Shown: in pieces, positions 7,342 to 61,956 of the stretch
Layout of the letters: each line of letters opens with the position of its first letter
Position numbering within the stretch: position 1 is the first letter of the stretch
DNA from: Verrucomicrobiota bacterium
GTDB lineage: Bacteria; Verrucomicrobiota; Verrucomicrobiia; Chthoniobacterales; Terrimicrobiaceae
Length of the DNA: 64,000 bases
Direction: 5' to 3'
Assembly (NCBI GenBank): GCA_017305195.1
Contig: JAFKMU010000059.1
Coordinates: 1 to 64,000, forward strand
Notes under the pieces: generated by a model
What the model was told of the DNA's origin: nothing
The model's input: only the letters and a program-made list of their open reading frames with translations
Database searches by the model: none
Translations under genes and position numbers: made by a program

Positions 7342-7367
7342 CGGGAGGGGAGGGATTGGGGAATGAA

Positions 7368-8025: not shown

Positions 8026-8168
8026 GGGAGAAATTCGTTTGAATTACGGTTATCATACAATAGCCTGAATTGAGCGAAGACAAGCGCGGGAAATTCCGCG
8101 CCGAGCGCGCTGCTGCCGCCGTCAATTTTTTATACCGTGAACATTATGAATCGAAAGGATCGCACCAG

Positions 8169-43980: not shown

Positions 43981-44017
43981 TCTCAGGCAGATGGACTTTG
44001 GGCCCGCCTGCCTGAGA
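43981..44017. repeat. Inverted repeat downstream of the RRM gene
   Basis: Perfect 10-bp arms TCTCAGGCAG and CTGCCTGAGA are separated by 17 nt, just past the stop of the RRM gene and 70 bp after the GH130 fragment. There is no T tract on either side; it may still act as an mRNA 3' stem. Confidence 0.45.
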
Positions 44018-44030
44018 GAGACAAATATGC

Positions 44031-44327: not shown

Positions 44328-44553
44328 AATGGTGAATGATCTAGAGCTAGACTGACAATCTCATAGCCGTTCCCGAACATCGGGTTTCGATCATCACCGG
44401 GGACTCCCACCTGACAACTACCGTGCAACGAACCTGAACAATATACTCGGGACCTAGGCTCGTCTGCTTTTTCAGATACGCAATCTATTTCTCAATATTC
44501 CGCATTGCGCGCCTTGATTGGGACGGCAAACCGGGAGCAGTCAAGCGCCTCAA

Positions 44554-45684: not shown

Positions 45685-46107
45685 GAGCGTATTCTTTTCC
45701 TGATCTGCCTAAGCAGGCGTGGGGTGGCCGGGCATCGGCGGCGCGGGTCGCCGAGGCGGTGAGTTTTCTGGAGCTTTTGAAAAGTGACGTGAGACCCCGG
45801 CATTCTCGGTGGATTGCCGCGAGTTCAATGTTTCGCGGATTCCCAATTGAGTGGCCGGCGCGAAGACCGTTGTGTATCGGCCAGGACCGGTGCGTCAACG
45901 TTGGCCGAGACCGTGATTTGCGAGCGACACGAGCGGGAAACAGGCTCTGCGTGAGATGGAATCAAAAGATGGCATTCGACGCATGATAGAAGCCCCGAAC
46001 TGGAGCAAGAGAGTCGGAGGAAAGGTCCGGGGTGTCAAACCCCATCGCCACAATCCAGCCCGAGCATCTGCTTTAGCCACGATGCATCGTCCCGGGTTGC
46101 GGCGTCA
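45685..46107. other. Gene-free stretch between the GNAT-like gene and the IS remnant
   Basis: About 420 bp. Short ORFs on both strands lack recognisable content. It lies inside the presumed decayed mobile region. Confidence 0.4.
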
Positions 46108-46143
46108 GTGATCTGCCCCCAACAGGTGATCTGCTCCCAAAAG
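46108..46143. repeat. Tandem 18-bp repeats resembling an IS3-family end
   Basis: GTGATCTGCCCCCAACAG (46108-46125) is followed immediately by GTGATCTGCTCCCAAAAG (46126-46143), two mismatches apart. TGATCTGCC/TCCC-type sequences are common at IS3-family termini. The C-terminal end of an IS3-type transposase is read 120 bp further on, at the expected distance. Confidence 0.5.
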
Positions 46144-46520
46144 ATCGGACCGGATAAAACGAAAAAGTTTCTGGTTTGACCTCAACCTGCGAACTGGACC
46201 GCAAAAGCTCAAGAGTCGGCTAGAGTGTGACGCTGTTCCGAAGTTTGGACAGAGGGCAGCATTAGTTCGTGGCAGGTAGAAGCCCCTGAGTTTTTCTGTT
46301 TCCGTTTGTTTTGCCTAGAGTCCGCAAGGTCTGCGCTGCGAACGCAGCTTGAGGCAAGTTCGGCAGCGCACCATGTGGACGATAGTCGTTGTATTCTTCG
46401 TGACACAGCTGGAGTTTGTCACGCGCCTCTTCCAACGAGGCGAAGAGATGTGTGTTCAGGCACTCGTCGCGGAGCTGGCCATTAAAGCTTTCGATGAAGC
46501 CGGAAGTTCTTGTCGTTCCA
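46108..46520 (-). mobile_element. IS3-family insertion sequence remnant (3' end only)
   Basis: The minus strand from about 46520 to 46262 encodes the C-terminal integrase-core segment of an IS3 OrfB transposase: FIESFNGQLRDECLNTHLFASLEEA and YNDYRPHGALPNLPQAAFA, which includes the final catalytic Glu of the DDE triad. The upstream two thirds of orfB and orfA are absent. The terminal-repeat-like sequences at 46108-46143 mark the likely right end. The fragment is fused in frame to a recombinase gene. Confidence 0.75.
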
Positions 46521-47218
46521 CGGCCGGATCGCCCCTTTCCCGGCCAGTGGCGGAGGATTGCATCAGCCGTCGGCAGAAGCTCGATGTACCGTTCCCGGAG
46601 CCCGCCGCGGGTCTTCTTCGGAATCACGTGGAGTTCTTTGCCCTTCCAATCGAAATCCTCCCAGGTAGCCCGAAGAATCTCGGACGTTCGGAGCCCGCAA
46701 TATCCGCCGAGCGCTGCCCATGCGAGCAGAGGAGGGGAGTTGATCTCTTCTGCCTTCTCGAGAACGAGCTTCATCTCCGCGGGGGTGAGGATGCCTTTCT
46801 TGCCCTCCGGCTTCTCGATCCCGATCTTGGCCGCCGGGTTCCTGGGGATGATTTCCAGCCAGTCCCGGCAGTGTTCGAAGAAACGCCTGACGATTCTGAA
46901 GCAGTTGTATTGATGGCATTCGGACCCGCCAACCGCATTCAACCACTGATCAATGTCATGGTGAGTGATGCTTGAAAGGGCGTGAGCGCCATACTTCTCT
47001 TTGAAGAGCTTCCCAATGTAGCGGTAGTGCGCCTTCGTGCGGGCAGCGAGTTTATCGATTCGGTCGAGCCACAGCGCCCAAACCTCCCGGACAGTGGCAC
47101 CAGATTGGGCACTGGGATCGGGATTTACGTAACCCTGAGATGCAATGGCCTCGGCCGCTCCCAGTCCATTCTCCCGGTAGTAGACGATGAACTTCAAGGC
47201 CTCTGGCTTCAGAGGCAA
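46262..47218 (-). pseudogene. Tyrosine recombinase truncated and fused in frame to an IS3 transposase tail
   Basis: Residues up to the junction near 46520 form a phage-type integrase: an N-terminal SAM-like core-binding domain (VREVWALWLDRIDKLAARTKAHYRYIGKLF; ITHHDIDQWLNAVG). The start of the catalytic domain has the first Arg (ALGGYCGLRTSEIL) and the beta-hairpin Lys (IPKKTRGG). The HxxR and nucleophile Tyr boxes are missing; after KGRSGRG the frame continues as IS3 OrfB (see the mobile element). Recombination activity is therefore not expected. The frame is open to 47362; I take a TTG at 47218 with an AGAGG site as a likely start. It lies directly 3' of tRNA-Arg, the usual place for the integrase of a tRNA-inserted element. 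Confidence 0.8.
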
Positions 47219-47314
47219 AAAAGAACCTCTGGCGATGAGTGCCGGTCTCTTTTGCCGAGAGATCGACCTTCCAAGGAAGCTTTCGTCCCTCGATGTAATC
47301 GGCCTCTCAGGGCG

Positions 47315-47380
47315 TTCTGAGAGTGGAAAAGAAACTGCACCGGGCGGGGGTCGAACCCACAACCTTCGGCTCCGGAGGCC
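47315..47380 (-). repeat. Direct-repeat partner overlapping the tRNA-Arg 3' half (candidate att site)
   Basis: The segment matches 38156-38221 across the tRNA T arm, acceptor stem and about 20 bp beyond. It is the intact, probably functional copy. Confidence 0.65.
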
Positions 47381-47409
47381 GACGCTCTATCCGATTGAGC
47401 TACCGGTGC
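47336..47409 (-). tRNA. tRNA-Arg (anticodon CCG)
   Basis: A full cloverleaf reads on the minus strand. Acceptor arms are GCACCGG/CCGGTGC with discriminator A, the D arm is GCTC/GAGC, and the anticodon stem TCGGC/GCCGA encloses loop CTCCGGA (anticodon CCG, codon CGG). The T arm is GTGGG/CCCGC with a TTCGACC loop. CCA is not encoded. The recombinase remnant lies immediately downstream. Confidence 0.93.
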
Positions 47410-47495
47410 GTAGGGTGCGAAGCATCCAGCATTTCGGACGGAGAATCAAGCGTGAGAGCTTGATTTTGTACGATTTCGGGAGTGGACTACAATTC

Positions 47496-48197
47496 ATGCC
47501 CCTGCTTCTCGTGCTCCTCCTGGCTTTTGGCTCCTCCGCTTTGGCCCAATCGAACGTAGAGAATCGTTCCGCCTTTACCTCGGAGCCCGGCGTGCAGGGC
47601 GAGGTGAATGCCATCGTCATCCAGCCGGATGGCAAGGTGATCATCGGCGGTCACTTCACTTCGGTGAACGGACAGCCGCGAGGCAATCTGGCCCGGCTGA
47701 ATCCCGATGGCACGCTGGATTCCACCTTTGCCAACACTTTCGAGGCAGGTGTGAGCGGGCAGGTCCTGGCGCTCGCCCTTCAGGCCGATGGCAGTGTGAT
47801 CGTGGGCGGTTCGTTTAATCAGGCGAATTCCTTCCAAATCTACAATATTGCGCGCTATAAGGCCGATGGCAGCATTGACAAGGGATTTGCCTCGGGGGAT
47901 GGCACGGGCAGCCCGGGAACGGATGGGCCGGTCTTTGCGTTAACCGTTCAGCCGGACGGAAAGATCATCCTGGGCGGCAGCTTCAGCCAGGTGATTGGTC
48001 AGCCTCGCCGCAGTGTGGCCCGGCTCAATGCGGACGGTTCGCTTGATGCCCCGGTGCTTTCCAATCCCCAAGCGGCTTCCGGTACCGTCAAATCCGTCGT
48101 GCTCGATGCCCGTGGCGCTCTCGTTGCAGGAGGACGGTTTTCTGTACAGAATCAGACGGCTCAGAATTTGCTTAAGGCTTCTCCCTCAGGGAACTAG
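47496..48197 (+). CDS. Secreted delta-60 repeat (beta-propeller-like) protein
   Basis: The 233-residue protein has a signal peptide (1-17, ALAQS). Four delta-60 repeats follow, each of the form AIVIQPDGKVIIGGHFTSVNG ... NLARLNPDGTLDSTF; the others include ALALQADGSVIVGGSF, ALTVQPDGKIILGGSF and SVVLDARGALVAGGRF. In larger proteins these repeats form surface propellers; here only four are present, so it is short for the family and may be a fragment of a longer ancestor. It is encoded just past the tRNA and upstream of the cellulose operon in the same direction, 219 bp away. Confidence 0.8.
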   Translation: MPLLLVLLLAFGSSALAQSNVENRSAFTSEPGVQGEVNAIVIQPDGKVIIGGHFTSVNGQPRGNLARLNPDGTLDSTFANTFEAGVSGQVLALALQADGSVIVGGSFNQANSFQIYNIARYKADGSIDKGFASGDGTGSPGTDGPVFALTVQPDGKIILGGSFSQVIGQPRRSVARLNADGSLDAPVLSNPQAASGTVKSVVLDARGALVAGGRFSVQNQTAQNLLKASPSGN

Positions 48198-48252
48198 CTT
48201 CCTCTCATTCCCCAGGGGAAGGGGAAAAGCTGTAAAAACTTCATGCAATCGG

Positions 48253-48281
48253 TTGCAATGAGTGCGCCGATGTGGTTTACT
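48253..48281 (+). promoter_or_regulatory. Possible sigma-70-type promoter for the cellulose operon
   Basis: TTGCAA (48253-48258) and TTTACT (48276-48281) are separated by 17 bp, 135 bp upstream of the first operon gene. A GCAATCGGTTGC dyad (48245-48256) overlaps the -35 element. Confidence 0.3.
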
Positions 48282-48415
48282 TTGCCCCCGTATTGGCTGC
48301 GATATGGAGGGAGATACCCCTGAAAATGTAATTAACCTTGTCGGAGGTGGCTTTCTTCGTGAAGCTACACGGCTTACCTTATCGCAGTCATCCGGAGGTC
48401 TGCTTCGAACTCACT

Positions 48416-49207
48416 ATGCCTGGTAGCGCTCAAATCATCCGCCGAATCATTGTCAGTGCCACATGCAAGGGAGGTGTGGGCCGTACTTTTTTCCTGGTGA
48501 ATCTCGCGGATTGGTATGCAGAGATTGAGCAGGATTTCGCCTTTTTCGATTCGGATATCTATAATGGCACCTTGACCCGTTTCCTGCCTGATTCCCGCTT
48601 CCTGCCTCTGGATAACCCTGAGGAGGCCGTGCGCGAGTTGAGCGAGGTGCTCGACGAGAGCGAGGTCATTGGGTGGGACGCGCTCGGGGCGTTGAAAGGG
48701 TACTATCCCGATTTCCTCGACGAGACCTTTGTGCAAAACAAGGATCGTTTCACCGAGCATCGAGTGACGATGATCCTCATGATCGAGGAGGACAAGGACA
48801 CGGTTTTCCAAGCAGGAGAGCTGGCCAAGCGCCTGGGTGATCAGGTGGACTGGCTGGTGGTAAAAAATCACAAGACCTGCTCGACGTCAGAGATTTACGA
48901 TAATAGCAAGGCTCGCCAGGAGTTGCTGCGCCTCGGTGCGGTGGAGATCACCATGGAGCGCGTTCCGTGGAGCCTGCTGGCAACGATTCAGAAGACCAGC
49001 CGGGGGCTTTCCTCGCTGGTGCTGGATGAATCGCTGCCGTTCCTCGAGAGACAGCGTCTCCGGACCTTTCAGAAGAGGTTTTTCGAGCAGTTGGAATCTG
49101 CTCGCGCCCTCTTGGTGCCGACCCGCCTCGCCATGACAGCCCCTGTGCACAAGTCGGGCAAGCCGACATCGTCCGCGCGGCCGCGAGTAGCTCCCGAGGA
49201 GGTTTGA
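48416..49207 (+). CDS. MinD/ParA-like ATPase paralogue with altered Walker A, cellulose operon
   Basis: The 263-residue protein has the SIMIBI ATPase fold of BcsQ/ParA. Its P-loop reads SATCKGGVGRTFFLVNLADW (about 14-33): the deviant-Walker signature Lys is kept but the invariant Lys before Thr is replaced by Arg (codon CGT at about 48494), so ATP hydrolysis may be lost. FFDSDIYNGTLTRFLP aligns with the Switch I region of the next gene, and VDWLVVKNHK is the adenine-pocket segment. The downstream paralogue has an intact motif and begins at its stop (TGATG overlap). In cellulose operons such proteins (BcsQ) help to localise the synthase. ATG 48416 was chosen; a TTG start at 48338 would add 26 residues. 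Confidence 0.75.
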   Translation: MPGSAQIIRRIIVSATCKGGVGRTFFLVNLADWYAEIEQDFAFFDSDIYNGTLTRFLPDSRFLPLDNPEEAVRELSEVLDESEVIGWDALGALKGYYPDFLDETFVQNKDRFTEHRVTMILMIEEDKDTVFQAGELAKRLGDQVDWLVVKNHKTCSTSEIYDNSKARQELLRLGAVEITMERVPWSLLATIQKTSRGLSSLVLDESLPFLERQRLRTFQKRFFEQLESARALLVPTRLAMTAPVHKSGKPTSSARPRVAPEEV

Positions 49208-49935
49208 TGAGCAAATCCCGGGCGCTATCCAAGATACCCACCCGCACCCACACCAAGCGTTTGGTGATGGTGGCCATTGACAAGGGAGGAGTCGGCAAGT
49301 CGTTCTTCTGCGTGCGGCTGGTCGAGTGGCTCGGCATGCACGGTGTGAATTTCTCGGCTTTCGATCCCGACTACAGCAACAGCACGCTGACACGGTTTTA
49401 TCCGGGTGCGAAGTTTCTCGACATCCGGCATAGCGAAAATCTCGACCAGATCGTGGAGTCCTTTGACAACAGCGACCTGATCATCGTTGACGGGGTGGGG
49501 GCGCACCAGAGCATCTTCCTGGATTGGATGGAGGAGACCGACCTGCTCAATGTGAAGCAGCAACTGGGGCTTTCCGTGACGCTCGTTCTCATCATTGAAT
49601 CCGACAAAGACACCGTGCATCAGGCGGGAGAAGCCGCCAAGCGCGCGGGTGGTCTTGTCGACTGGCTGGTCGTAAAGAACCAGAAGATGTCGCACACGAT
49701 GCGCATCTACGACAACAGCCAGGCACGCCAGACGCTGCTGGCCAACGGGGCCATCGAGGTCGAGATGCCCAAGCTCCAGCCGCATCTTGCGGAAGTGCTG
49801 CAAGCCCGCTCGCTGACCATCGACAAGGCGCTGGAAAGCCCCGAGGTGAATCTCCTGGACCGCCAGCGGCTCATTGACTTTTCCAGACAGTGGTTCGCGC
49901 AACTCGATAACGCCAAACAAATCCTTTTGCCATGA
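49207..49935 (+). CDS. MinD/ParA-like ATPase (BcsQ-like), cellulose operon
   Basis: The 242-residue paralogue of the preceding gene has a canonical deviant Walker A, AIDKGGVGKSFFCVRLVEW (about 23-41). Switch I is FDPDYSNSTLTRFYPGAKF, Walker B is LIIVDGVGAH, and VDWLVVKNQK follows. It likely dimerises with itself or with the upstream Arg-variant. No membrane-targeting helix is obvious at the C-terminus. Starts overlap the flanking genes (TGATG upstream, ATGATAG downstream), so all three small proteins are translationally coupled and should be produced in proportion. The family assignment is secure; a role in polar or patch localisation of cellulose synthase is inferred from BcsQ. Confidence 0.82.
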   Translation: MSKSRALSKIPTRTHTKRLVMVAIDKGGVGKSFFCVRLVEWLGMHGVNFSAFDPDYSNSTLTRFYPGAKFLDIRHSENLDQIVESFDNSDLIIVDGVGAHQSIFLDWMEETDLLNVKQQLGLSVTLVLIIESDKDTVHQAGEAAKRAGGLVDWLVVKNQKMSHTMRIYDNSQARQTLLANGAIEVEMPKLQPHLAEVLQARSLTIDKALESPEVNLLDRQRLIDFSRQWFAQLDNAKQILLP

Positions 49936-50447
49936 TAGAAAATCCGGAAATCCGCGCCAAGATCCTCGACTGGCAGAAACGCTACAACATCCAGGATGGC
50001 GACCCAGCCATTGCTCTGCTGGAGCTTATCGAATTCATCGGCCCGATGCGTTCATCCGGCGCTGCGGAGCCAGGTGAATACCGCGCCCCAGCCCAGGTGG
50101 CACCGATCTCCGCCCAGGTCGACGTATCCAGCGAGTCGCTTGCCGAGGCGATGAAGACTGCGCTGCTGCCCGTGATCGAGCGCATGTCCTACCAGGCGCA
50201 GGAGATGCAGCAGAAGCTCGAGCACATCGACTTCGACAAGTTCGTCAAGCAGATCGAGACCTACCATGAGGGGATCGACTACTGCACAAAGAAGCTCGAT
50301 GTGGTGAAGAAGGAGACCGACGCCCTCGTCATCCGGGTGGACAAGGTTGGCTCGCAGATCAAGCCCATTACTCGTGGAGCGGTGATCACCCTGTGCCTTT
50401 TCTTTGCAGTGCTTGGCGCGATCGTTTCGCGCCTCCTGGGCCTGTAG
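49932..50447 (+). CDS. Coiled-coil membrane-anchored protein of the cellulose operon, unknown
   Basis: The 171-residue protein has an N-terminal soluble helical part (about 1-40) and a Pro/Ala linker. A long coiled coil spans about 65-140 (ERMSYQAQEMQQKLEHIDFDKFVKQIETYHEGIDYCTKKLDVVKKETDALV in part), and one C-terminal membrane helix about 149-170. It would be tail-anchored, with the coiled coil in the cytoplasm. It is coupled to the ATPase gene by a 4-bp overlap and precedes bcsA by 23 bp. It matches no bcs accessory protein I know. A link between the two ATPases and the membrane synthase is a reasonable inference. Confidence 0.7.
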   Translation: MIENPEIRAKILDWQKRYNIQDGDPAIALLELIEFIGPMRSSGAAEPGEYRAPAQVAPISAQVDVSSESLAEAMKTALLPVIERMSYQAQEMQQKLEHIDFDKFVKQIETYHEGIDYCTKKLDVVKKETDALVIRVDKVGSQIKPITRGAVITLCLFFAVLGAIVSRLLGL

Positions 50448-50470
50448 GCGGATAGAGTTCAGACGACCGG

Positions 50471-52738
50471 ATGGCGAAAAAGAAATCCAAACACAGCGGG
50501 ATGGAGAGCTTGGGATACAAGCTCCTGGCCCGCATCGAAAAGAGCCCGCTGACCCAGCTCATACTGGCAGCCCTTTTCGTCGCCGGGATCATCGCCTGCG
50601 CCGCGAGCATCACCACGAAGACCCAGATCGCCGTGGCGGTCTCCGCCATCGTCGTCTTCCTCGCTCTCAAGAAGTTCAACAACATCGAGACCATCCGCGT
50701 TCTCTATCTCATCCTCGCGGCATTTCTCTCGGTCGACTACTTCTACTGGCGTACTTTTACGACTCTCGGCTTCAACGATCTGCTCAGCTTTTCCTGCGCG
50801 ATCATCCTGTATCTGGCCGAGCTCTACGGTTTCGTCGTCTACATCCTGAGTATCTTCGTCAACATCGACCCGCTGGATCGCAAGCCGATCCCCCTGCACA
50901 AGGACGAGCTGGACAAGGTGCCAACGGTCGACGTGATGATCCCTTCGTACAACGAGGAGTCGGAGCTGCTTGAGGTCACGCTGCTTTCCGCCCTCCAGAT
51001 GGATTATCCGAAGGATCGCTTCGACGTCTACCTGCTGGACGATGGCGGCACCGACCAGCGCTGCAACTCTCCTGATCCCGTCCTGGCGGCCAAGTCCAAG
51101 AAACGCCGGGAGGAGCTGAAGGCCCTCTGCGCCAAGGTGGGAGCCAGGTACCTCACCCGCGAAAAGAACGTCCACGCCAAGGCCGGCAACATCAACAGCG
51201 CCCTCCAGCAGACCGAGGGCGATCTCATCATGATCCTTGATGCGGATCATGCTCCGACGGCGGACTTCCTGCAAAACACGGTTGGCTGGTTCATCAAGGA
51301 CCCAAAGATGTTTCTGGTTCAGACGCCGCACTTCTTCATCAATCCCGATCCGATCGAGAAGAATCTCCAGACCTTCACCCAGATGCCGAGTGAGAACGAA
51401 ATGTTCTACCGCGTCATCCAGCGGGGGCTGGATTACTGGAATGCCGCCTTTTTCTGCGGTTCGGCCGCCGTCCTGCGCCGCAAGTACATCATGGAGATCG
51501 GTGGCATCAGCGGTGACACCATCACCGAGGATGCCGAGACCGCGCTGACCATGCACGCCCGCGGGTACAACAGCGCCTACATTGCCAAGCCCATGATCTC
51601 GGGCCTCCAGCCGGAAACGCTCGGCGGGTTCATCGGCCAGCGTGTGCGTTGGGCTCAGGGCATGTTGCAGATTTTCCTGCTGAAGAATCCGCTCGTCCTG
51701 CCGGGACTCACGCTGCCCCAGCGGCTATGCTACTTCAGCAGCGGCTTCTTCTGGTTCTTCGCTTACGCTCGACTTGTCTTCCTGCTCGCCCCGATGTGCT
51801 TCCTTTTCTTCGGGTTGAAGATTTACAACGCAAATTTCGTCGACTTTGCCGCGTACTGTTTGCCGCATCTTTTTGCGGTCTTCATGGTCTCCGATTTCCT
51901 CTTTGGCCATGTCCGGTGGTCTTTTGTCTCCGAGCTTTATGAGCTCATGCAGTCGGTCTACACCTTCCCGGCCATGCTCAAGGTGTTGATGAACCCCCGG
52001 GCTCCGAAATTTAACGTGACGGCCAAGGGCGAGACGCTGACCCAGGATTTTATCAGTCCGCTGGCCAAGCCGTTTTACCTTTTCCTGCTGCTCAATCTGG
52101 TGGCCATCGGTTTTGGTGCAGGGCGTCTGGTCTGGGGCAATATCGGCGACCGCTTCCCAACGACCATCACGATGTGCTGGGCGGGATTCAATGTCTTCAT
52201 CCTGCTTGCCGCCATGGGTGCGCTGCTGGAACGAAGGCAGCGCCGTGCCACGCCCCGCATGCCTGCCCAGATCCCGGCCCGCGTGCGGGTGGGAGACAAG
52301 TCCTATGTCGCGACGATCACCGATCTCTCGATCAGCGGTGCGAGCATTCAGATCGACGCGGCCTACGAGACCATTTTCCGCACCGACACCAAGGCCGACT
52401 TCATCGTGCAGGGCAATAATGCCGTCGCCGGAGAACCTTTCCATTTCGTCGTGCGCAATGCACGCAGCGAAGGGTCGCTGACGAATCTCGGCGTGCAGTT
52501 CCAACACAAGGATCTGGAGGAGCTGAAACGCAAGGTGCTCCTCGTCAATGGCAGCAGCGACCGCTGGATCAGCTTCCAGACGAATCGCGAGAAACGGCTC
52601 GGCGTCACACGCAGCGCGTTCTTCCTCATGAGCTGCGGCATCCGCTTCTCGATCGAGCATTTCGCCCACCTGATGATTGAATCCAACGTGCGCCAACCAT
52701 CGCCCGCTTATCACGTGGGAGGCCGATCTTCGAACTAG
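50471..52738 (+). CDS. bcsA: Cellulose synthase catalytic subunit with PilZ domain
   Basis: The 755-residue GT2 processive synthase polymerises UDP-glucose into beta-1,4-glucan and extrudes it through its own membrane channel. There are four N-terminal helices (about 28-130). The GT2 motifs are DDG (190-192), DAD (257-259), FFCGS (327-331), TED (352-354) and QRVRW (390-394). C-terminal helices follow (about 410-585), then a PilZ domain with RRQRR (588-592) and DLSISGAS (618-625). These match the RxxxR and D/NxSxxG c-di-GMP-binding motifs, so activation by c-di-GMP is expected. bcsB follows after 7 bp. Confidence 0.96.
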   Translation: MAKKKSKHSGMESLGYKLLARIEKSPLTQLILAALFVAGIIACAASITTKTQIAVAVSAIVVFLALKKFNNIETIRVLYLILAAFLSVDYFYWRTFTTLGFNDLLSFSCAIILYLAELYGFVVYILSIFVNIDPLDRKPIPLHKDELDKVPTVDVMIPSYNEESELLEVTLLSALQMDYPKDRFDVYLLDDGGTDQRCNSPDPVLAAKSKKRREELKALCAKVGARYLTREKNVHAKAGNINSALQQTEGDLIMILDADHAPTADFLQNTVGWFIKDPKMFLVQTPHFFINPDPIEKNLQTFTQMPSENEMFYRVIQRGLDYWNAAFFCGSAAVLRRKYIMEIGGISGDTITEDAETALTMHARGYNSAYIAKPMISGLQPETLGGFIGQRVRWAQGMLQIFLLKNPLVLPGLTLPQRLCYFSSGFFWFFAYARLVFLLAPMCFLFFGLKIYNANFVDFAAYCLPHLFAVFMVSDFLFGHVRWSFVSELYELMQSVYTFPAMLKVLMNPRAPKFNVTAKGETLTQDFISPLAKPFYLFLLLNLVAIGFGAGRLVWGNIGDRFPTTITMCWAGFNVFILLAAMGALLERRQRRATPRMPAQIPARVRVGDKSYVATITDLSISGASIQIDAAYETIFRTDTKADFIVQGNNAVAGEPFHFVVRNARSEGSLTNLGVQFQHKDLEELKRKVLLVNGSSDRWISFQTNREKRLGVTRSAFFLMSCGIRFSIEHFAHLMIESNVRQPSPAYHVGGRSSN

Positions 52739-52745
52739 CTGCCCT

Positions 52746-55115
52746 ATGAATAATATGATGCGCCAACTCCACCTGCCGCAGAGCCTGATCCTCGTGCTCG
52801 CCGTGATGGCCGGTTCGCTTGCGCCGCTGTCCGCCCAGCAGCAAGCCGCCCCCCCCATGGTTGCTCCGGCCGCGCTGGCCCTGCCGACACCTGGCACCAC
52901 GTTTTCCCAGCGCGTCGTGCCGGCAGGAGCTGCCAAGCTGCCCTTGCCCGAGCGCACCACGCCCCGTGAAGAGACGCTGCGTCTGCCCATTCGCAAGCTC
53001 ATCGCCCTCGATTCCCCCATGCTCCTGCGCAATGCCTCGAGCATTTACACGATCTTCGTCCCGATCAGCGCACGGTTGAAGTTCAAGACGTGCTCGCTGA
53101 ACCTGGATTTCACCAACTCCATCGCTCTGCTCACCGAGCGTTCCGTCCTCCGCGTCGTGGTCAACGATGTGATCGTCGCTCAATACCGGCTGGACCGGAA
53201 CCGCCCCTTCAACTCGGTGGAGATGGGCATTCCGCTGGAGCTCCTCAAGCCAGGCTTCAACCGCCTGCAATTCATCGTTGCCCAGCACTACACCAACCAG
53301 TGTGAGGACCCGAGTGCGCCGGAGCTTTTCACCGAGATCAACCCCGATACCTCGTATCTCTCCGCGGTGGCCGAGTGGCGCGATGTCCCGCAGCGCCTGT
53401 CCTTTCTGCGCTGGTGGGTGGATGAAAAGCTCTGGAATCCTTATCAGTTCAACGTCTGCTTCCCCGGATCGAGCCAGATGACCGACCTCCAGCTTGCCTG
53501 GGGCGGCATCGTCACCCAGGGGGTGGCGCTGGCCCTGAACTACCAGCCGTTCCGGGTGACCGCAGCCAACGCTCTGCGTGCCGGCATGGACAATATCGTC
53601 GTGGGAACGATGACCGAGCTTTCCGGCTATCTCACGGCCACGGAGATCGGGTCCGTGAATGGCAGCTTCCTGGCAATCAAATCCCTGCCGGGCGATCCGG
53701 CCCACTGCATGATCATCATCAGCGGTCGCGATGAGCGCGAGGTGAGCCAGACCGCGCTCGCATTCGGGCTGGTGAATTACCCGCTCCCGGATTCCCAGTA
53801 CGCCATCGTCGACCAGCTCACGCTGCCGCAGGAACCTGCCTTCGTTCGCAACGCCCCCCTCCAGATGCCGGGCATCTACAGCTTCCGGCAACTCGGGTAC
53901 AAGCAGCAGACGATCCGGGGATGGAATTCCGGAAGTTATTCGATTCCGATCTACATGCCGGGCGACATTTCCAAGGATGATGGCGCCAACGCCGAACTCC
54001 GCCTGCATTTCACCTATGGCGCGGCGTTTCGCGAGGACTCGGTTTTCAATGTGTTCGTCAACGGCCAGTTCCAGAAGGCCATCCGTCTGCGCGATCAGAA
54101 CGGGTCGATGCACTCCGATCACAGGCTGTATCTGCCCATGATTTCGTTCCAGCCCGGGCGCAACGTCGTGGACCTTACGCCGGCGATGGTTCCTCTGGTC
54201 ACGGGCAAATGCCAGATGATCCAGGAGGAGAACCTGGTGTTCACCCTCTACGACGATTCCCAGTTTGTGTTTCCGCGGGCCATGCGCAAATGCCGTCTGC
54301 CCAGCCTGGGACTTTTTTCCCAGACAGCCTTTCCGTACTCCGGATCACCGGATGGCGCCGAGACGGCGCTCTTTGTCGCGGGCCGCGATCTGGAGACTGT
54401 GACGGCGGCATGGACCCTTCTCGGCAAGATGGCGCAGATTTCAGGCGCTCTACTTCACCGCCTGGAGGTCGGCTTCAAGCCGCCGGGTCGCAACATCCGC
54501 AAAAGCCTCCTTGTTGTCGGCGCGCGCGACCAGATCCCGGAGGAAATCGTGGCCCGAGCCCCGGTCTCGCCGTTGCAGGTCGGCAAGATGCGCTATCTGG
54601 TGAGCGTAAGCCCCAAGCCGGAGCGCCTCGCGACCTCGCCGATCGAGGAATTCCTCGAGAAGATTCGCGGAACTCCGGCGGAGAAGGCGGAGCCCGAACC
54701 GCCCAAGACGGCGGAAATGACGATGGCCGCGGATATGATCGACGACACGGTGGCCGTGCAGTTCGAGTCTCCGACAGCCATCGGCTATCCGGTCACCATT
54801 GTCACCGCCGGAAGCTCGGCCAATCTCCTGGCCGGTATGAACGCCCTGCAGGATCGCAGCATCTGGGACAACCTTGCCGGTGACCTTGCTGTCTGGAACA
54901 CCCAGCCGGATTCGCTGGCCGTGGCCAAGGTCGGTCCCGACTTTATCTACAAGTCGACCTCCGTCGTGACCCGCGTCGGCACCAACATGCAGCAGAGCCC
55001 GTGGCTGTTTGCCCCGATCCTCATCGTACTCATCCTCCTTATCGCCCTGGGTGTCCGCGCCGTGCTGCGCCGCCGTGGCGAGAAGCTCGGTGACGACAAC
55101 GAATCCGATGCCTGA
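52746..55115 (+). CDS. bcsB: Cellulose synthase regulatory/periplasmic subunit BcsB
   Basis: The 789-residue exported protein has a signal peptide (about 1-30, LSAQQ). A periplasmic part of alternating carbohydrate-binding-like and flavodoxin-like domains follows (about 75-700; LRNASSIYTIFVPIS, DFTNSIALLTERSVLRVVVND, RLQFIVAQHYTNQCEDPSAPELFTEI). A C-terminal membrane anchor (about 757-777) packs on BcsA. The N-terminal region is Ala/Pro-rich. The CE of QCEDP with the surrounding NxxxLFTE pattern is characteristic of BcsB. Start ATG 52746 lies 7 bp after bcsA, and its stop overlaps bcsZ (TGATG). Confidence 0.93.
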   Translation: MNNMMRQLHLPQSLILVLAVMAGSLAPLSAQQQAAPPMVAPAALALPTPGTTFSQRVVPAGAAKLPLPERTTPREETLRLPIRKLIALDSPMLLRNASSIYTIFVPISARLKFKTCSLNLDFTNSIALLTERSVLRVVVNDVIVAQYRLDRNRPFNSVEMGIPLELLKPGFNRLQFIVAQHYTNQCEDPSAPELFTEINPDTSYLSAVAEWRDVPQRLSFLRWWVDEKLWNPYQFNVCFPGSSQMTDLQLAWGGIVTQGVALALNYQPFRVTAANALRAGMDNIVVGTMTELSGYLTATEIGSVNGSFLAIKSLPGDPAHCMIIISGRDEREVSQTALAFGLVNYPLPDSQYAIVDQLTLPQEPAFVRNAPLQMPGIYSFRQLGYKQQTIRGWNSGSYSIPIYMPGDISKDDGANAELRLHFTYGAAFREDSVFNVFVNGQFQKAIRLRDQNGSMHSDHRLYLPMISFQPGRNVVDLTPAMVPLVTGKCQMIQEENLVFTLYDDSQFVFPRAMRKCRLPSLGLFSQTAFPYSGSPDGAETALFVAGRDLETVTAAWTLLGKMAQISGALLHRLEVGFKPPGRNIRKSLLVVGARDQIPEEIVARAPVSPLQVGKMRYLVSVSPKPERLATSPIEEFLEKIRGTPAEKAEPEPPKTAEMTMAADMIDDTVAVQFESPTAIGYPVTIVTAGSSANLLAGMNALQDRSIWDNLAGDLAVWNTQPDSLAVAKVGPDFIYKSTSVVTRVGTNMQQSPWLFAPILIVLILLIALGVRAVLRRRGEKLGDDNESDA

Positions 55116-56236
55116 TGAGGGGGAAGTGGGCAGTCATACTCGGGCTTAGTGCGATTTTTGCGCTCGTCTTCGGCTTCAAACTGGTCGGTTTCGTGCTCGA
55201 TTTCCTCAATCCCTACGGACTGCGCCAAAGCGATTGGACGATCTATCAGAAGAACTTCATCAACGCCGCAGGCCGGGTCATTGATACCGGGAACGGCGAC
55301 GTCAGCCATAGCGAGGGACAGGGGTACGGACTGGTTATCGCGCTCGCCTACGGCGATCATGCGGCGTTTGACCGCATCTGGGCCTGGACGCAGCAAAACC
55401 TCCAGGTCCGGCCCTCCGACAAACTGCTCGCCTGGCAATGGAAGCCGGGAGCCAAACCGATCGAGGACGAGAACGGGACGCCGCTTCCCGGTTCGGACCG
55501 AACCGGTGCGGTAACGGACACCAACAACGCCAGCGACGGCGATATCCTTGTCGCTTGGGCGCTCATTCGCGCCTCCAAGCTCTGGAACGACTATCGGTAT
55601 CAGCAGGCTGCTGCGCAGATCCTCGTCGATCTCGCCCGTCTCGATCTCCGCGAGTATGAGAGCAAAACGGTGCTGCTGCCGGGTACCGACGGGTTCTGGA
55701 CCGACGACGGCGCCACGCTGAACCCGTCGTACTACATCTTCCCGGCTTTGGACGAGATCGCCCTCGCATTTCCCGGCACCCCTTGGACCAAGGTCGCCAG
55801 CGACGGCCGGACGCTTATCGAAAAAGGCGCTTTCGGAAAATGGAAGCTCTGCCCCGACTGGATTTTTGCCACCGGGAGCGAACTGCAAATCTCGCCCAAA
55901 TTTCCTCCAGACTTCGGTTACAACGCCGTTCGCGTACCTCTCCATATCGCCTGGGCGCAAAAGGATTCGCCATTGCTTGTGCCGTTCGCCGATTTTTGGA
56001 AGCCTTTGCTCCCGGACCATATGCCCGCCACGGTGAATTTGAAGGACGATTCTTTTGGGCCTTATCCGGCATTGCCCGGGATGAAGGCAATAGCCGCCTA
56101 CACGATAGCCTGCGCATCCAAAGGAAGCTTGACAGTCCGGGCGCTTCCTGCGGTAACGAAGGAGGAGCCGTATTTCTCCGCCAGCCTTTCCATCCTGACC
56201 AAGATCGCCGTACGTGAGTCCTTTGCGACCAAATAG
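55115..56236 (+). CDS. bcsZ: GH8 endo-beta-1,4-glucanase of the cellulose operon
   Basis: The 373-residue periplasmic cellulase trims nascent glucan and is needed for normal cellulose output. An N-terminal hydrophobic segment (about 6-30) serves as signal or anchor. The GH8 acid is Glu67 in SHSEGQGYGLVIAL, and Asp141 in NNASDGDILVAWAL is the other conserved acidic position. NPSYYIFPAL and PDFGYNAVRVPLHIAW are also family-typical. The ATG overlaps the bcsB stop. The gene for the BcsC-like protein starts within 35 bp of its end. Confidence 0.93.
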   Translation: MRGKWAVILGLSAIFALVFGFKLVGFVLDFLNPYGLRQSDWTIYQKNFINAAGRVIDTGNGDVSHSEGQGYGLVIALAYGDHAAFDRIWAWTQQNLQVRPSDKLLAWQWKPGAKPIEDENGTPLPGSDRTGAVTDTNNASDGDILVAWALIRASKLWNDYRYQQAAAQILVDLARLDLREYESKTVLLPGTDGFWTDDGATLNPSYYIFPALDEIALAFPGTPWTKVASDGRTLIEKGAFGKWKLCPDWIFATGSELQISPKFPPDFGYNAVRVPLHIAWAQKDSPLLVPFADFWKPLLPDHMPATVNLKDDSFGPYPALPGMKAIAAYTIACASKGSLTVRALPAVTKEEPYFSASLSILTKIAVRESFATK

Positions 56237-56267
56237 ATACAACAAAAGAATTATTGCGTCCGGCGCC

Positions 56268-58382
56268 ATGCGTCTGGTTGCATTATTGATCTCCTTTCTC
56301 GCTTTTGAGAGGGTGGTCGCGCAGCCATTTTTCGGAGAGCAGCCTCCTCCGGATATCGGCGCGGCTCCGGCCAGCACGCCTTCGCTTTTCGTTCCGGTCA
56401 AGCCGGGAGCTCCGACTCCTACACCCGCGCCGACTCCGGCCCCGGCGGCGACGCCGACGATGTTCATTCCCAGCGATCTGCCGCCTCCGGCGGTACAGGC
56501 CACGGGGGAGACATTGGATCTCGTGCCGGAGGCGGTGCCGGTGGCAACTCCGATCCCCAGGGCAAAGGCGACTCCCACTCCGGTGAAGCGCTCTGCCCCG
56601 GTCCCGCAGGTCCTTTCGCAGGCTCAGATCAGCCAGCTCGCAAACCAGGCGACAACGACCCGGAGTTCCGCCACGGCGACACAGCTAGGCTGGGCGTACT
56701 TCAATCGCAACGAATACTCCTCGGCTGGCATGTGGTTCAACCAGGCCTTGGAGTGGAACTCCAGCTCCGGCGAGGCCGCCTACGGCCTGGCGCTTTCCAA
56801 GTTCCGTGAAGGTGATCTCTCCTCAGCCGAGGCCATCGCAAATTTCCGCGTGAACAGTTACCCGAAGATGAAAACCCTGCTGGGCGACATCTATTCCCGA
56901 CGCGGCACCGAGGCCTACGAAAACAAGCAATACGACGAGAGCCTCCAGTACTTCAACAAGGCGGGTTCCATGCGCTCCCTCAGCCGCAACGAGCAGATCA
57001 TCGTGGCTTGGGATCTTTACTACACCAAGCAGTACGAGCAGTCGGCGGAGCTTTTCCAGAAGCTCTATCGCAACTCACCCGATCGCGTCGCCGCCCAGGG
57101 AGCCTACGCTGCGTACTCCAAGACCAAGTCTTACGACAAGCTCGACTCGCTCTCCGGCTCGGGCGGTCCGCTCCGCGACATGTACTACACCTACGACGCG
57201 AAGAGCTATATGTCGGCCAACCTCTTCCGCGCCGCTGCGGACTCGGGTGGTGCGAAGGTTTATCCCGTCCTGCAGAATCTGAACAAGCCGAGCGTCGCGG
57301 CAGGATTTGGATATCGGACAAAGTCGGGTTCCGCCGGCGAAGGCCAGTTGCAGGTCATCACTTTCCCGGTCATCCAGGCTCAGGTCTTTCCTGCCAACAA
57401 ATTCATGCTGAGCGCCGCGCTCACGCACCTGAGCCTCGATAGCGGCGACCTCCCCAATGGCGCACAGGTCGGCACTCCTCCAGCGGTTTACACGCCCTAC
57501 AACTATCAGCCCACCACGAGCGAGGATGACCTGTGGGAGTTCAATGTCCGGCTCGAGTATCAAGACTGGATCAGCTGGTACATTCAGCTGGGCACCACGC
57601 CGATCAATGGTCCGCTCCAGAGCCGTCCGACCGGCAGCGCGGGCCTCATCTGGCGTAGCAACAGCGGTTACGTCCAGGGTGAAATTTACTCCAAGTCGAT
57701 CAAGGAAAGCATGCTCTCCTGGGTCGGCATCGTTGATCCCTACACCGGCAACCAGTGGGGTCGTGTGCAGGAGACGGGCGGCAACCTCCAGTTCTTCCAC
57801 TCCGTCGGCGAGGACAATACGATCTACCTCAAGGGTGGCTATGGCACGATCGACGGTACAAATGTCGAGGACAATACCCACCTCTACGGTACGGCGGCCT
57901 TTGCCCACCTGCTCGACATGCCGGGCTACGAGTACTTCACCATCGGCTTCGCGCTCTCCTACGAGCAGTTCGATAACAACCAGAACCACTTCACTTACGG
58001 CAACGGCGGCTACTTCAGTCCGCAGTACCTTCTGCAGGGTATCGTCCAGGCCCAGTTCCTCACCGAAGAGGGGCGTCGCTGGCTAGCGGCAGGCAGCGTC
58101 GGAGCGGGTGTGCAGAATAACAAGCAGGACGCCTCTCCGTATTTCCCGCTGGATGACGACGGCCAGGAGTTTGACTCGCAGGAGTCGACCACCGGCATCG
58201 GCCTCATCCAGCTTCAGGGCGGCTACCTCATCGACCCGAACTGGATGATCGGCGGCAGCCTGAACTACAACATCACGGCGGATTACAATGAAGGCGGCAT
58301 CTACATCTGGGGCCGGTATTTCTTCGACCGCCGCAAGGGTCTCCTCCGCACCGACCTGATCGGGTTCGATCTCTTCCAGTAG
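56268..58382 (+). CDS. Short BcsC-like outer-membrane cellulose export protein
   Basis: The 704-residue protein has a signal peptide (1-18, VVAQP), a Pro/Thr/Ala-rich linker (about 25-130) and only about four to five TPR-like units (about 140-320; ATQLGWAYFNRNEYSSAGMWFNQALEWNSSSGEAAYGLA). A C-terminal beta-barrel domain of the BCSC_C type (about 345-704) ends in aromatic strands WGRYFFDRR ... GFDLFQ with a terminal-region Phe as expected for an outer-membrane barrel. Canonical BcsC is over 1,100 residues with many TPRs, so the periplasmic scaffold is much reduced. The GTG at 56214 would overlap bcsZ; ATG 56268 starts directly on the signal peptide. It is last gene of the operon. Confidence 0.82.
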   Translation: MRLVALLISFLAFERVVAQPFFGEQPPPDIGAAPASTPSLFVPVKPGAPTPTPAPTPAPAATPTMFIPSDLPPPAVQATGETLDLVPEAVPVATPIPRAKATPTPVKRSAPVPQVLSQAQISQLANQATTTRSSATATQLGWAYFNRNEYSSAGMWFNQALEWNSSSGEAAYGLALSKFREGDLSSAEAIANFRVNSYPKMKTLLGDIYSRRGTEAYENKQYDESLQYFNKAGSMRSLSRNEQIIVAWDLYYTKQYEQSAELFQKLYRNSPDRVAAQGAYAAYSKTKSYDKLDSLSGSGGPLRDMYYTYDAKSYMSANLFRAAADSGGAKVYPVLQNLNKPSVAAGFGYRTKSGSAGEGQLQVITFPVIQAQVFPANKFMLSAALTHLSLDSGDLPNGAQVGTPPAVYTPYNYQPTTSEDDLWEFNVRLEYQDWISWYIQLGTTPINGPLQSRPTGSAGLIWRSNSGYVQGEIYSKSIKESMLSWVGIVDPYTGNQWGRVQETGGNLQFFHSVGEDNTIYLKGGYGTIDGTNVEDNTHLYGTAAFAHLLDMPGYEYFTIGFALSYEQFDNNQNHFTYGNGGYFSPQYLLQGIVQAQFLTEEGRRWLAAGSVGAGVQNNKQDASPYFPLDDDGQEFDSQESTTGIGLIQLQGGYLIDPNWMIGGSLNYNITADYNEGGIYIWGRYFFDRRKGLLRTDLIGFDLFQ

Positions 58383-58389
58383 CCCTGGG

Positions 58390-58707
58390 TTAATGGGGCG
58401 CGAGCTTCAGCCCGATCACGCCGAGAAGGATCAGCGAGATGCAGGCCAGCTTGAGGGGGGACAGCGTGTCCCCGAGCAGCAGCGAACCGCAGAGAAATGT
58501 CCCGGCTGCGCCGAGACCTGTCCAGATCGCGTAGGCGGTGCCGATGGGCAGGGAGCGCGATGCCATGCCGAGGAGCGAAATGCTCAATAGCAGGCAGGCC
58601 AGCGTGATGGTGGAGGCCAGCGGACGCCGGAATCCGTCGCTATATTTGAGGCCCACGGCCCAGCCGATCTCAAAAAACGCCGCGAGTGTAAGGTAGACCC
58701 AGTTCAT
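58390..58707 (-). CDS. SMR-family guanidinium exporter (Gdx/SugE type)
   Basis: The 105-residue four-helix small multidrug resistance protein has the essential Glu13 in AAFFEIGWAVGLKYSDGF. SMASRSLPIGTAYAIWTGLGAAGT-type helix 3 features of SugE/Gdx are present, with the family helix 4 ending. Gdx proteins export guanidinium in exchange for two protons. The assignment is strengthened by a guanidine-II riboswitch immediately upstream. It converges on bcsC with 7 bp between the stops. Confidence 0.93.
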   Translation of the reverse strand: MNWVYLTLAAFFEIGWAVGLKYSDGFRRPLASTITLACLLLSISLLGMASRSLPIGTAYAIWTGLGAAGTFLCGSLLLGDTLSPLKLACISLILLGVIGLKLAPH

Positions 58708-58720
58708 ACGATGGATGATC

Positions 58721-58760
58721 CGGGCCGTCCCGAGCGAGGTTCAGGAGAGGTCGTCCTCTC
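58721..58760 (-). promoter_or_regulatory. Guanidine-II (mini-ykkC) riboswitch
   Basis: The minus strand contains two consecutive perfect hairpins with ACGR tetraloops, the class hallmark. The first is GAGAGG-ACGA-CCTCTC (58745-58760) and the second CGGG-ACGG-CCCG (58721-58732), joined by a 12-nt linker. The second ends 13 nt before the ATG of the SMR gene, where ligand binding can free or block the ribosome site. Guanidine-II elements typically control SMR exporters. Confidence 0.9.
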
Positions 58761-58817
58761 GATGGGGAAGGTAGCTTTATCCCGGAATCGGGTCAAATCG
58801 ATTCCCTCGCGCGAGTC

Positions 58818-60053
58818 TCACGGCTCCCTGCCCGGAAGGAGCAGCGTGGCAGCCTTGTCGAGCGTCTCCTGCCATTCCGCCTCGGGGAGGGAATCCGCCA
58901 CGATGCCCGCGCCAGCATGGAAACTGCCCCGGCCGCCCTCGAACACGGCGGTGCGAATCGCGATGGAGAATTGACTTTCCCCATTGTATCCAAAATAGCC
59001 GATGGCCCCGGTGTAGACACCGCGCGGGTGGGCTTCGAGCTCCGCGATGATTTCCAGGGCGCGTTTCTTGGGGGCGCCGGAGATCGAGCCGCCGGGAAAG
59101 CACGCACGCAGCGCGGCGGGCTGGCTGACATCGTCGCGGAGGGTGCCGTGGACGGTCGACACAAGGTGATGCACGTGCTGGTAGCTTTCGAGCTTGAGCA
59201 GTTCCGGCACGCTCACGCTGCCAAAGTCGCAGACCATGCCGAGATCATTGCGCTCGAGGTCGGTGATCATGACCAGCTCCGCGATCTCCTTGGGAGAAGT
59301 CAGCAGATCATAGGCATTGCGCTGGTCGAGCTGCTGATCCATGCGGCGGGGCCGCGTCCCCTTGATCGGGCGGGTGATGATGCGGCGGCCATTCATGCGC
59401 AGGAAACACTCGGGTGAAGCTGAGACGACCTGGCATCCGGCGAGATCGAGAAAGGCGGAGTAGGGGGCGGGGGAGTGATGGCGGAGAGCCTCGTAGTATC
59501 CCCAAGGGTCGCCCGGAAAGTCCGACTCGAACGCATGCGCCAGGCAGACCTGGTAAATGTCTCCCGCAGCGATGTACTCCTTTGCGCGAGCCACCATCGA
59601 GACAAACTCCTCCCGGCTGATTCGCAGATGCCACTCGGGCCGGGCAAAGACGGTCGGCCCGGGATTTCCTGTCGAGGGAGGATTGGCCAGCCAGACGCCG
59701 CGACCGTGATGATAGATCGAGGGCTGGTCGTAAAAACCGAAGCGATATCGGCCGTCGAATCCGACCCAACCGATGGCTGCGCCGGTGGGGATGCCGAGAT
59801 CCGCGGAGGGCGATGCCCTGCGGGCGAGCTCCTCCTCAAAGGACCGCCAGCCGGAGATATCTCCCGTCATCACGAGATCGGGCTCGGCCGCCAAAAGAGA
59901 GAAGGACTGGGGGCCGGGCAACCCATCCTCGAGACATACAAATCCGGGCTTCGAGCGCAGCGCGCGCGCCGCATCGATCAGCTCCAAGGTCTCGATTTTG
60001 GGGTTTTCGACAGCCACACGAAGAAAATCTCCCAAAGAGACGCCTGCGTCCAT
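58818..60053 (-). CDS. pabB: Aminodeoxychorismate synthase component I
   Basis: The 411-residue chorismate-binding enzyme forms 4-amino-4-deoxychorismate for folate biosynthesis. Typical segments are GAAIGWVGFDGRYRFGFYD, GDIYQVCLAHAFE, SPECFLRMNGRRIITRPIKGTRPR, ELVMITDLERNDLG, CFPGGSISGAPKKRALEII and GIVADSLPEAEW. The PIKGTRPR form (Lys in PIKGT) is the PabB signature; anthranilate synthase TrpE has PIAGTRPR. No PabA or PabC is adjacent, and the C-terminus has no fused lyase. The ATG at 60053 is 53 bp from the divergent Ala/Pro-rich gene. Confidence 0.9.
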   Translation of the reverse strand: MDAGVSLGDFLRVAVENPKIETLELIDAARALRSKPGFVCLEDGLPGPQSFSLLAAEPDLVMTGDISGWRSFEEELARRASPSADLGIPTGAAIGWVGFDGRYRFGFYDQPSIYHHGRGVWLANPPSTGNPGPTVFARPEWHLRISREEFVSMVARAKEYIAAGDIYQVCLAHAFESDFPGDPWGYYEALRHHSPAPYSAFLDLAGCQVVSASPECFLRMNGRRIITRPIKGTRPRRMDQQLDQRNAYDLLTSPKEIAELVMITDLERNDLGMVCDFGSVSVPELLKLESYQHVHHLVSTVHGTLRDDVSQPAALRACFPGGSISGAPKKRALEIIAELEAHPRGVYTGAIGYFGYNGESQFSIAIRTAVFEGGRGSFHAGAGIVADSLPEAEWQETLDKAATLLLPGREP

Positions 60054-60106
60054 GTTCTTCTGCTTGAGTATCGGCTTGTACGCAGATTAAGCTCCGGGTT
60101 TTCCCG

Positions 60107-60952
60107 ATGTCGTCCATGCTCCGCATCCTTTTTGTGCTGCTGCTTTCCTGTGCCGCGGCGATCTGCCAGGAAGCCACGCCTCCGTCGGCTGCGCCCGAGG
60201 CATCCGCCACCCCGGCCGAGCAACCGGCATCCACTCCAGCGCCTGAGGCCGCGACGGCGGCAGCTACTCCCGAGGCTTCGCCTGCGGCCACTCCGGAAGC
60301 CGCTGCCATGCCGGAAGCTTCTCCCGCAGCGAGTCCGGAGGCTGCCCCTGCTGCAAGCCCGGAAGCCACCCCATCATCCTCTCCCGAAGCAACGCCGACC
60401 CCGGAGGCGTCACCGGCTCCCGAGTCTTCGCCTGCGGCGGAGGCGTCGCCTTCACCGGCGGCGGCGACCGACACCATTCCTCTGGAAGGCCAGACGGCCG
60501 CCCCGTCGGGCGGAGCACCCCTCGATACCCAGGATCTCGCGCCGCCGCTGCCGACCGCGCCGATGCCGGATGCCGCTTTTACCGATCCCAACGCCATCAT
60601 TCCCGACTCCGGCCCCGTGCCTCCGGGCATGCCCAAGGTGGCCGAGAACCTTCAGGCCAAGGCCCGCGAAACCATCGTGCGCTATCGCGATGTCCGAGTG
60701 CAGGCCGACAAGGACCCCCAGGTGCTCGCCATGTTCAAAAAGTCGACCGTCGCCAAGACCGACGAAGACAAGCGCGCCGCTCTCCGGGAATATTACCGAC
60801 TCCTTTTCCAGAAGATGATCGATATCGACAACTCCCTGACCGCCCGGTGCAAGGCGATGGAAGCCGCCTATCTCAGGCGGCTCGCTCAGGAGAGGTTGGA
60901 GCCGACCATCCCGCTCAACCCTCCGCCGACGCCGGAACCTCTTTCCCGCTAA
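60107..60952 (+). CDS. Secreted Ala/Pro/Ser/Glu-repeat protein, unknown
   Basis: The 281-residue protein has a signal peptide (about 1-20, AICQE). A roughly 100-residue low-complexity stretch of imperfect ATPEASPA-type units (about 22-125) is probably disordered and cell-wall or envelope spanning. A helical C-terminal domain (about 180-265; AKARETIVRYRDVRVQADKDPQVLAMFKKS ... CKAMEAAYLRRLAQERL) and a Pro-rich end follow. The unit resembles spacer regions of envelope proteins. No family is recognised. ATG 60116 is an alternative start. It precedes prs by about 30 bp. Confidence 0.65.
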   Translation: MSSMLRILFVLLLSCAAAICQEATPPSAAPEASATPAEQPASTPAPEAATAAATPEASPAATPEAAAMPEASPAASPEAAPAASPEATPSSSPEATPTPEASPAPESSPAAEASPSPAAATDTIPLEGQTAAPSGGAPLDTQDLAPPLPTAPMPDAAFTDPNAIIPDSGPVPPGMPKVAENLQAKARETIVRYRDVRVQADKDPQVLAMFKKSTVAKTDEDKRAALREYYRLLFQKMIDIDNSLTARCKAMEAAYLRRLAQERLEPTIPLNPPPTPEPLSR

Positions 60953-60985
60953 ACAGTAGAAAGCCAGGCCGTGTTCTCCGAATTT

Positions 60986-61951: not shown

Positions 61952-61956
61952 TAAAC

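Follow-up and report, generated by a model that had tools for sequence, protein, structure and literature searches.

Two StbB/TraL-type ATPase paralogues and an StbC-like protein precede bcsA in a Verrucomicrobiota cellulose operon and may represent a co-opted conjugation module

What are two tandem ParA-type ATPases and a small protein with one hydrophobic segment near its C-terminus doing at the head of a cellulose operon? The question is raised by a 64,000-nucleotide stretch of a Terrimicrobiaceae genome (Verrucomicrobiota bacterium, GenBank assembly GCA_017305195.1, contig JAFKMU010000059.1, positions 1 to 64,000 of the forward strand; hereafter the window), in which positions 48416-58382 hold seven close-packed genes in the order Q1-Q2-CC-bcsA-bcsB-bcsZ-bcsC, the last in a short form. 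A preliminary description of this DNA took the first two products for BcsQ-type ATPases and proposed that, together with the third, they form a positioning or assembly module for the BcsA-BcsB synthase. Our comparisons place the ATPases elsewhere, among the StbB/TraL-type proteins of conjugation modules, and lead us to propose, with a probability of roughly 0.55, that Q1-Q2-CC is a conjugation positioning module that may have been co-opted to place, assemble or activate cellulose synthase; a role in positioning or assembly would fit what the relatives of the module do.

Evaluating first the family of the two ATPases, we found Q1 (48416..49207, + strand, from an ATG at 48416, with a longer TTG start at 48338 possible) and Q2 (49207..49935, + strand) to be paralogues, as had been described, with 41% identity over 227 residues. 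Neither matched the BcsQ models PF06564, TIGR03371 or PRK10037 at E up to 1, in libraries where E. coli BcsQ, as positive control, scored 381, 295 and 541 bits, respectively, and in BLASTP Q2 gave E 2.1 against E. coli BcsQ and E 2e-12 against IncP TraL. These model scans and BLASTP searches rule out membership of the BcsQ family for both proteins, and that part of the preliminary description had to be given up. The best NCBIfam match of Q2 was TraL (NF010461, E 3e-9), covering residues 20-239 and hence full length, at 36.6 bits, far under a 360-bit cut-off that was made for IncP TraL; Q1 matched the same model over 39 residues only (E 3e-4). With full-length kinship of the Q1/Q2 group to StbB/TraL recovered by model, BLASTP and trees, the assignment of both as StbB/TraL-type ParA ATPases of conjugation modules, and not BcsQ, appears well supported.

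Searching 147 genomes of the order with Q1 gave matches in 33, comprising 11 with a tandem pair, 13 with a single ATPase and 9 with weak matches. The tandem pair occurred in two families and was followed by CC and bcsA in every one of the 11 genomes, bcsB-bcsZ-bcsC being also visible in nine of these stretches and the other two (L040 and L041) being short contigs that end in bcsA; the three-gene block is thus conserved beside bcsA, as the preliminary description had expected of a genuine module. StbA, TrwB and TrwC had no match in the window or in the ten other bcs stretches (L032-L041). Because the pair adjoins bcsA in 11/11 and these conjugation proteins are matched in 0/11, Q1 and Q2 are kin of StbB and not the StbB of an element. 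A scan of genome contigs with a Q2 profile, which relied on two peptide patterns and was not exhaustive, yielded eight close relatives, all Verrucomicrobia (L065-L072) and all among the same 11 loci, together with one Planctomycetota match of 35% over about 50 residues. In five further bcsA-B-Z-C operons from the phylum (L145, L149-L152), the stretch fetched showed no Q1, Q2 or CC match. Two further operons stayed uncounted, one (L141, genome G033) beginning at a contig edge before bcsA, in a genome without a Q1 or CC match, and one (L142) on a contig of G034 that is cut inside bcsA.

The single-ATPase loci of the order (16 loci in 13 genomes, E 1e-21 or better) have a different neighborhood: in the stretches fetched, the TrwB coupling protein was matched at all 16 and the TrwC relaxase at 15, mostly at 50-78% identity to one reference, and the locus lacking a TrwC match (L058) is a 4.2 kb contig. 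TrwC matches also lie near two further StbB-like ATPases of the window genome (L055 and L056) and near one of genome G041 (L062), and among the nine weak-match genomes L060 has a TrwC match over 870 residues and L061 has none. Beyond the order, StbA-StbB-StbC-TrwB with TrwC was found at 6 of the 10 loci fetched from the phylum (L197-L201 and L204, four genomes). These Verrucomicrobiota stbA-stbB-stbC-trwB modules with trwC (L042-L054, L057-L059, L197-L201, L204) are the nearest relatives of the Q proteins and CC. In them the StbC gene immediately precedes that of the coupling protein, just as CC precedes bcsA, and the StbA end resembles the end of Q1; they differ from the trio in having one ATPase and conjugation genes. 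Their common arrangement is that of the stbABC genes beside the trw genes of R388, as described in PMC3098194.

This distribution also bears on a reading in which the trio is a remnant of an integrated conjugative element that stands beside bcsA by chance. An integrase/transposase-like frame and a tRNA-Arg 1-2 kb upstream would suit such a remnant, as would the two other StbB-like ATPases of the same genome with full-length TrwC matches nearby, but the block is kept ahead of bcsA across two families (11 genomes), selection within the genus is strongly purifying (below), and none of the 11 stretches has an StbA, TrwB or TrwC match, which makes it, in our view, very improbable.

The third gene, CC (49932..50447, + strand), ties the trio to the same modules. 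Its product has a conserved N-terminal segment (WQKRYNIQDGDPAIALLEL), a variable linker, a conserved central YHEGIDYCTKKLDVVKK and, as first described, a single hydrophobic stretch at the C-terminal end (residues 151-169, with a Kyte-Doolittle mean of 2.4) preceded by Lys/Arg, a layout that suggests a tail-anchored protein facing the cytosol. It matched nothing in Pfam or NCBIfam better than E 0.012, in keeping with the earlier remark that it resembles no bcs accessory protein, and a PDB search with the CC alignment gave no match at E up to 1. A CC profile of 10 rows (G089 left out) was compared with 13 of the proteins encoded after single ATPases (115-120 residues), and hhalign returned 98.6% and E 7e-16, with none of 100 column shuffles scoring as high. 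Like those StbC-like proteins, CC has an N-terminal W..K..I.D.DP, a C-terminal hydrophobic segment and a gene that follows the ATPase gene, so that its homology to the StbC-position protein, whose gene comes after that of the StbB-type ATPase and which ends in a membrane segment, seems well supported. A plasmid search with one StbC-like protein gave no match.

The main rival, direct activation of BcsA, is best weighed against these family assignments. It holds that the Q1/Q2 dimer is a functional equivalent of E. coli BcsR2Q2, binding the PilZ side of BcsA and stabilising the active synthase with no positioning at the scale of the cell. In E. coli, too, a SIMIBI NTPase gene precedes bcsA (bcsR-bcsQ-bcsA), one that is required for cellulose secretion according to PMC7439463; a passage of PMC11470070 describes BcsR2Q2 as an ATP-bound sandwich dimer that binds the BcsA PilZ module and activates the synthase, and BcsA here carries a PilZ domain. 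Yet Q1 and Q2 belong to another ATPase family by models and BLASTP, no protein of the trio gave a match to a BcsR model, and the product of the third gene is an StbC-like protein with a membrane segment, leaving this equivalence, in our assessment, somewhat unlikely.

To return to co-option of a conjugation module, the trees bear on how the pair arose. In a 61-row tree Q1 and Q2 formed one group (97/89), with Q1 at 100/98 and Q2 at 94/81, and when five rows were left out the corresponding values were 100/99, 100/99 and 88/63; both trees are unrooted and came with long-branch warnings. Q1 and Q2 descend, on these trees, from a single old duplication, and because each half of the 61-row tree repeats the split of the two host families, the topology suggests that the duplication is older than that split. 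A comparable arrangement exists on cyanobacterial plasmids (L064, L188, L190, L192, L194), where tandem TraL-like ATPases are followed by a DUF6753-type protein, much as the trio has two TraL-like ATPases and then a protein with an N-terminal DP segment. In the two cyanobacterial B copies read (Anabaena and Chroococcidiopsis) the P-loop is GDARVGKS, without the signature Lys. A common origin of the two tandems was rejected, as grouping the cyanobacterial A copy with Q1 or Q2 failed two tests (p under 1e-37), and the plasmid-borne pair is an independent duplication.

Both P-loops reported earlier, CKGGVGRT in Q1 and DKGGVGKS in Q2, were confirmed, and their spread across genomes was uneven. The ParA-type deviant Walker A, KGGxxGK[ST], is kept by Q2 in 11/11 and by Q1 in 8/11, with Arg in the other three Q1. 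In all three genomes of the genus Q1 combines KGGVGRT with WDA at Walker B, whereas all eight Q1 outside the genus have KGGVGK[ST] and DG; in Q2 of the window KGGVGKS and VDG are both intact. A local mutation of this strain, which would have weakened the pseudo-ATPase idea, can therefore be set aside with Arg in 3/3 genomes, and the idea itself survives as a feature of the genus but not of the whole system. Because every Q2 and the eight Q1 from outside the genus have Lys, the Arg is probably the derived state. Nor is Q1 decaying, a candidate that dN/dS within the genus rules out: Q1 is under strong purifying selection at 0.020-0.025 (two of the three ratios being rough, at a Q1 dS of about 1.1, and the third having a dS of 0.34), against 0.031-0.046 for Q2, 0.049-0.069 for CC, 0.042-0.074 for BcsA and 0.059-0.068 for BcsZ, and its dN is the lowest of the five genes compared. 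The Arg, read from these comparisons, is fixed and kept under constraint.

Whether the Arg silences Q1 is a separate matter. One alternative, compatible with co-option and with BcsR2Q2-like activation alike, is that Q1 with Arg keeps nucleotide binding or ATPase activity, both proteins being active and forming no asymmetric pair. The Arg is present in only 3 of 11 Q1, the dN of Q1 is the lowest among the genes compared, and E. coli BcsQ, whose P-loop is RGGVGTT, is reported as ATP-bound in PMC11470070, so that a changed P-loop is no proof of lost nucleotide binding; the three genomes with Arg also share another change in the active site, at Walker B (DG to DA, preceded by Trp), which speaks against this alternative. 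We judge it unlikely, and the regulatory heterodimer of unequal ATPases proposed in the preliminary description is still plausible.

The end of Q1 provides a further link to the conjugation modules. It reads RPR[VI][AP]P..V in 11/11 (...ARPRVAPEEV in the window), and the StbA-like proteins, whose gene lies just before StbB, end in GP[RK][IVL][AV] plus a few residues in all 16 ends read from 22 loci. Among 830 distinct open reading frames (ORFs), taken from the window and from some of the fetched loci, the end pattern PR[IV][AVP], which was chosen after being seen, occurred in 20, of which 18 are Q1 or StbA-like, leaving 2 among the other 812. Q1 accordingly sits in the StbA gene slot with an StbA-like end and without the DNA-binding part of StbA; the likeness could reflect common descent, convergence or chance, with no certain way to decide among them.

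Taken as a whole, the trio resembles StbABC of R388 and TraK-TraL-TraM of RP4-like plasmids in having a ParA-type ATPase followed by a small protein, with Q1 in the StbA slot, and the TraM read has a C-terminal hydrophobic segment, as does CC. Unlike those systems it adjoins bcsA instead of oriT and a relaxase, its ATPase is duplicated, it lacks a DNA-binding StbA, and CC is longer, with its own conserved central motif and with a kinship to TraM that is unproven. For R388, the passages on the stb operon in PMC3098194 report that transfer depends on StbB as long as StbA is present, that plasmid foci close to the membrane at the poles also require StbB, and that StbA antagonises StbB.

From these likenesses we infer a possible course of events, in the direction from conjugation to cellulose. 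An StbB gene and the gene in the StbC position (the TraL-TraM position of RP4) would have joined the cellulose operon in an ancestor of these Verrucomicrobiota, and the StbB gene would have been duplicated to give Q1 and Q2. Q2 would bind ATP and form a sandwich dimer with itself or with Q1. In ParA/MinD proteins the signature (first) lysine acts across the dimer and the P-loop lysine acts in its own site; since Q1 retains the first and has Arg for the second in this genus, a Q1:Q2 dimer would have one working site. CC may use its conserved N-terminal segment to keep the dimer at the inner membrane, and the Q1 tail may act as the StbA tail would in the plasmid module, docking the side of the cargo on the ATPase or on CC. 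Because the DNA-binding part of StbA was not found, the cargo would no longer be DNA; it would be the BcsA-BcsB synthase, placed, assembled or held active. By analogy, then, Q2, with CC as its anchor and the Q1 tail as its coupling, could bring BcsA-BcsB to a site or hold it there or in the assembled state. More specifically, and only tentatively, at somewhat less than even odds, the StbB duplicate may have taken over the StbA role through an StbA-type docking tail and, in one genus, become the catalytically silent partner in a one-site heterodimer on a membrane-anchored StbC-like protein. Cyanobacterial plasmids acquired their own tandem with a degenerate partner independently.

Several observations weigh against a co-opted positioning module. 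From sequence, positioning, assembly and activation are indistinguishable. As the tree is unrooted, descent from a conjugation module rests on distribution, and four of the ten phylum loci (L202, L203, L205, L206) have a related ATPase without TrwB or TrwC matches. Q2 also matched MipZ (PF09140) at 27.3 bits over a cut-off of 20.7, over 47 of 262 profile positions around the P-loop, with no match for Q1 in the Pfam scan; a PDB search with the Q2 alignment likewise gave six weak partial matches (MipZ, quinolinate synthase and PF-32), the best at E 0.002, the value of the MipZ match at residues 17-94. The likeness of the tails involves few residues, was seen ahead of any test of it and might be due to convergence, and PR[IV] occurs in none of four proteobacterial TraK ends. 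Comparison of CC with IncP TraM (PF11657, three rows) gave 2.3%, with 1 of 100 shuffles as high, which is not significant; StbC-like proteins against the same TraM rows reached 14% (0/100), and against DUF6753 the values were 36% (0/100) for CC and 31% (1/100) for StbC-like proteins, making the links of CC to cyanobacterial DUF6753 and IncP TraM suggestive at most. Finally, in the R388 work as presented in the stb passages of PMC3098194, conjugation is normal when the whole stb operon is deleted, so StbB is needed only with StbA, and stbC deletion has no phenotype, StbC being called an orphan.

If co-option is correct, cellulose operons would have recruited ParA/MinD-type ATPases twice and independently, the second time from the plasmid-transfer line and not from the BcsQ line; in the literature searched (titles, abstract openings and passages, with preprints and most subscription papers outside reach), StbB/TraL-type proteins in a cellulose operon are not described. 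One Salmonella paper (PMC12654831) matched both of the terms TraL and cellulose synthase. Co-option would also point to a general role in membrane docking for the StbB-StbC/TraL-TraM pair, which is poorly understood. With CC and the StbC-like proteins of Verrucomicrobiota, the gene position of the orphan R388 StbC gains a conserved segment that is open to testing, and the cellulose setting allows easy assays, by dye binding and synthase localisation, of a module for which conjugation has otherwise been the means of study.

The remaining operon genes, all on the + strand, are those of a cellulose synthase: bcsA (50471..52738), the catalytic subunit with a PilZ domain (TIGR03030, 891 bits); bcsB (52677..55115), listed from a TTG at 52677, for which an in-frame ATG at 52746, ahead of a signal-peptide-like stretch, looks the likelier start; bcsZ (55115..56236), a GH8 endoglucanase; and the short bcsC (56214..58382), with few TPRs and an outer-membrane barrel domain. 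Pfam and NCBIfam scans confirm bcsA, bcsB, bcsZ and the BCSC_C barrel. The tight packing described earlier holds, with four of six junctions overlapping as listed, a gap of 23 bases between CC and bcsA, and a bcsA-bcsB junction that depends on the start chosen. The usual long BcsC is indeed absent, but a short one of 722 aa (BCSC_C, E 5e-55) is present; the operon, to whose seven genes this search was confined, encodes none of BcsD, E, F and G, of which a type III bcs system lacks D, E and G.

A DUF5122 beta-propeller frame (47187-48197, +) lies immediately upstream of the operon. A frame combining phage-integrase and rve_3 (transposase) matches (46262-47362, -) adjoins a tRNA-Arg (CCG) (47336-47409, -), and the two together have the look of a scar left next to the operon by an integrated element. 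A tRNA-Arg (CCG) is also upstream of the operon in L032 and L033, and Rfam at gathering scores found nothing besides this tRNA in 44000-62000. Elsewhere in the window genome, the two more distant StbB-like ATPases at L055 (11838-12569, contig C61) and L056 (8175-8840, contig C25) each have a nearby TrwC match of ~875 residues at 34-36% identity, and their surroundings are possibly conjugative elements or remnants. In L203, positions 7201-8744 hold a TraL-like ATPase with the P-loop GNVGKS and, after it, a protein whose C-terminal end is hydrophobic, with no conjugation gene matches. Among the weak BcsB matches, the three stretches fetched for genus g2 and the two for family f12 came with no BcsA match. 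The weak BcsB-family proteins of this genus and family (L143, L146-L148) sit in a recurrent cluster with a large membrane-type protein and a frame that begins like a nucleotide-sugar epimerase, perhaps another polysaccharide system.

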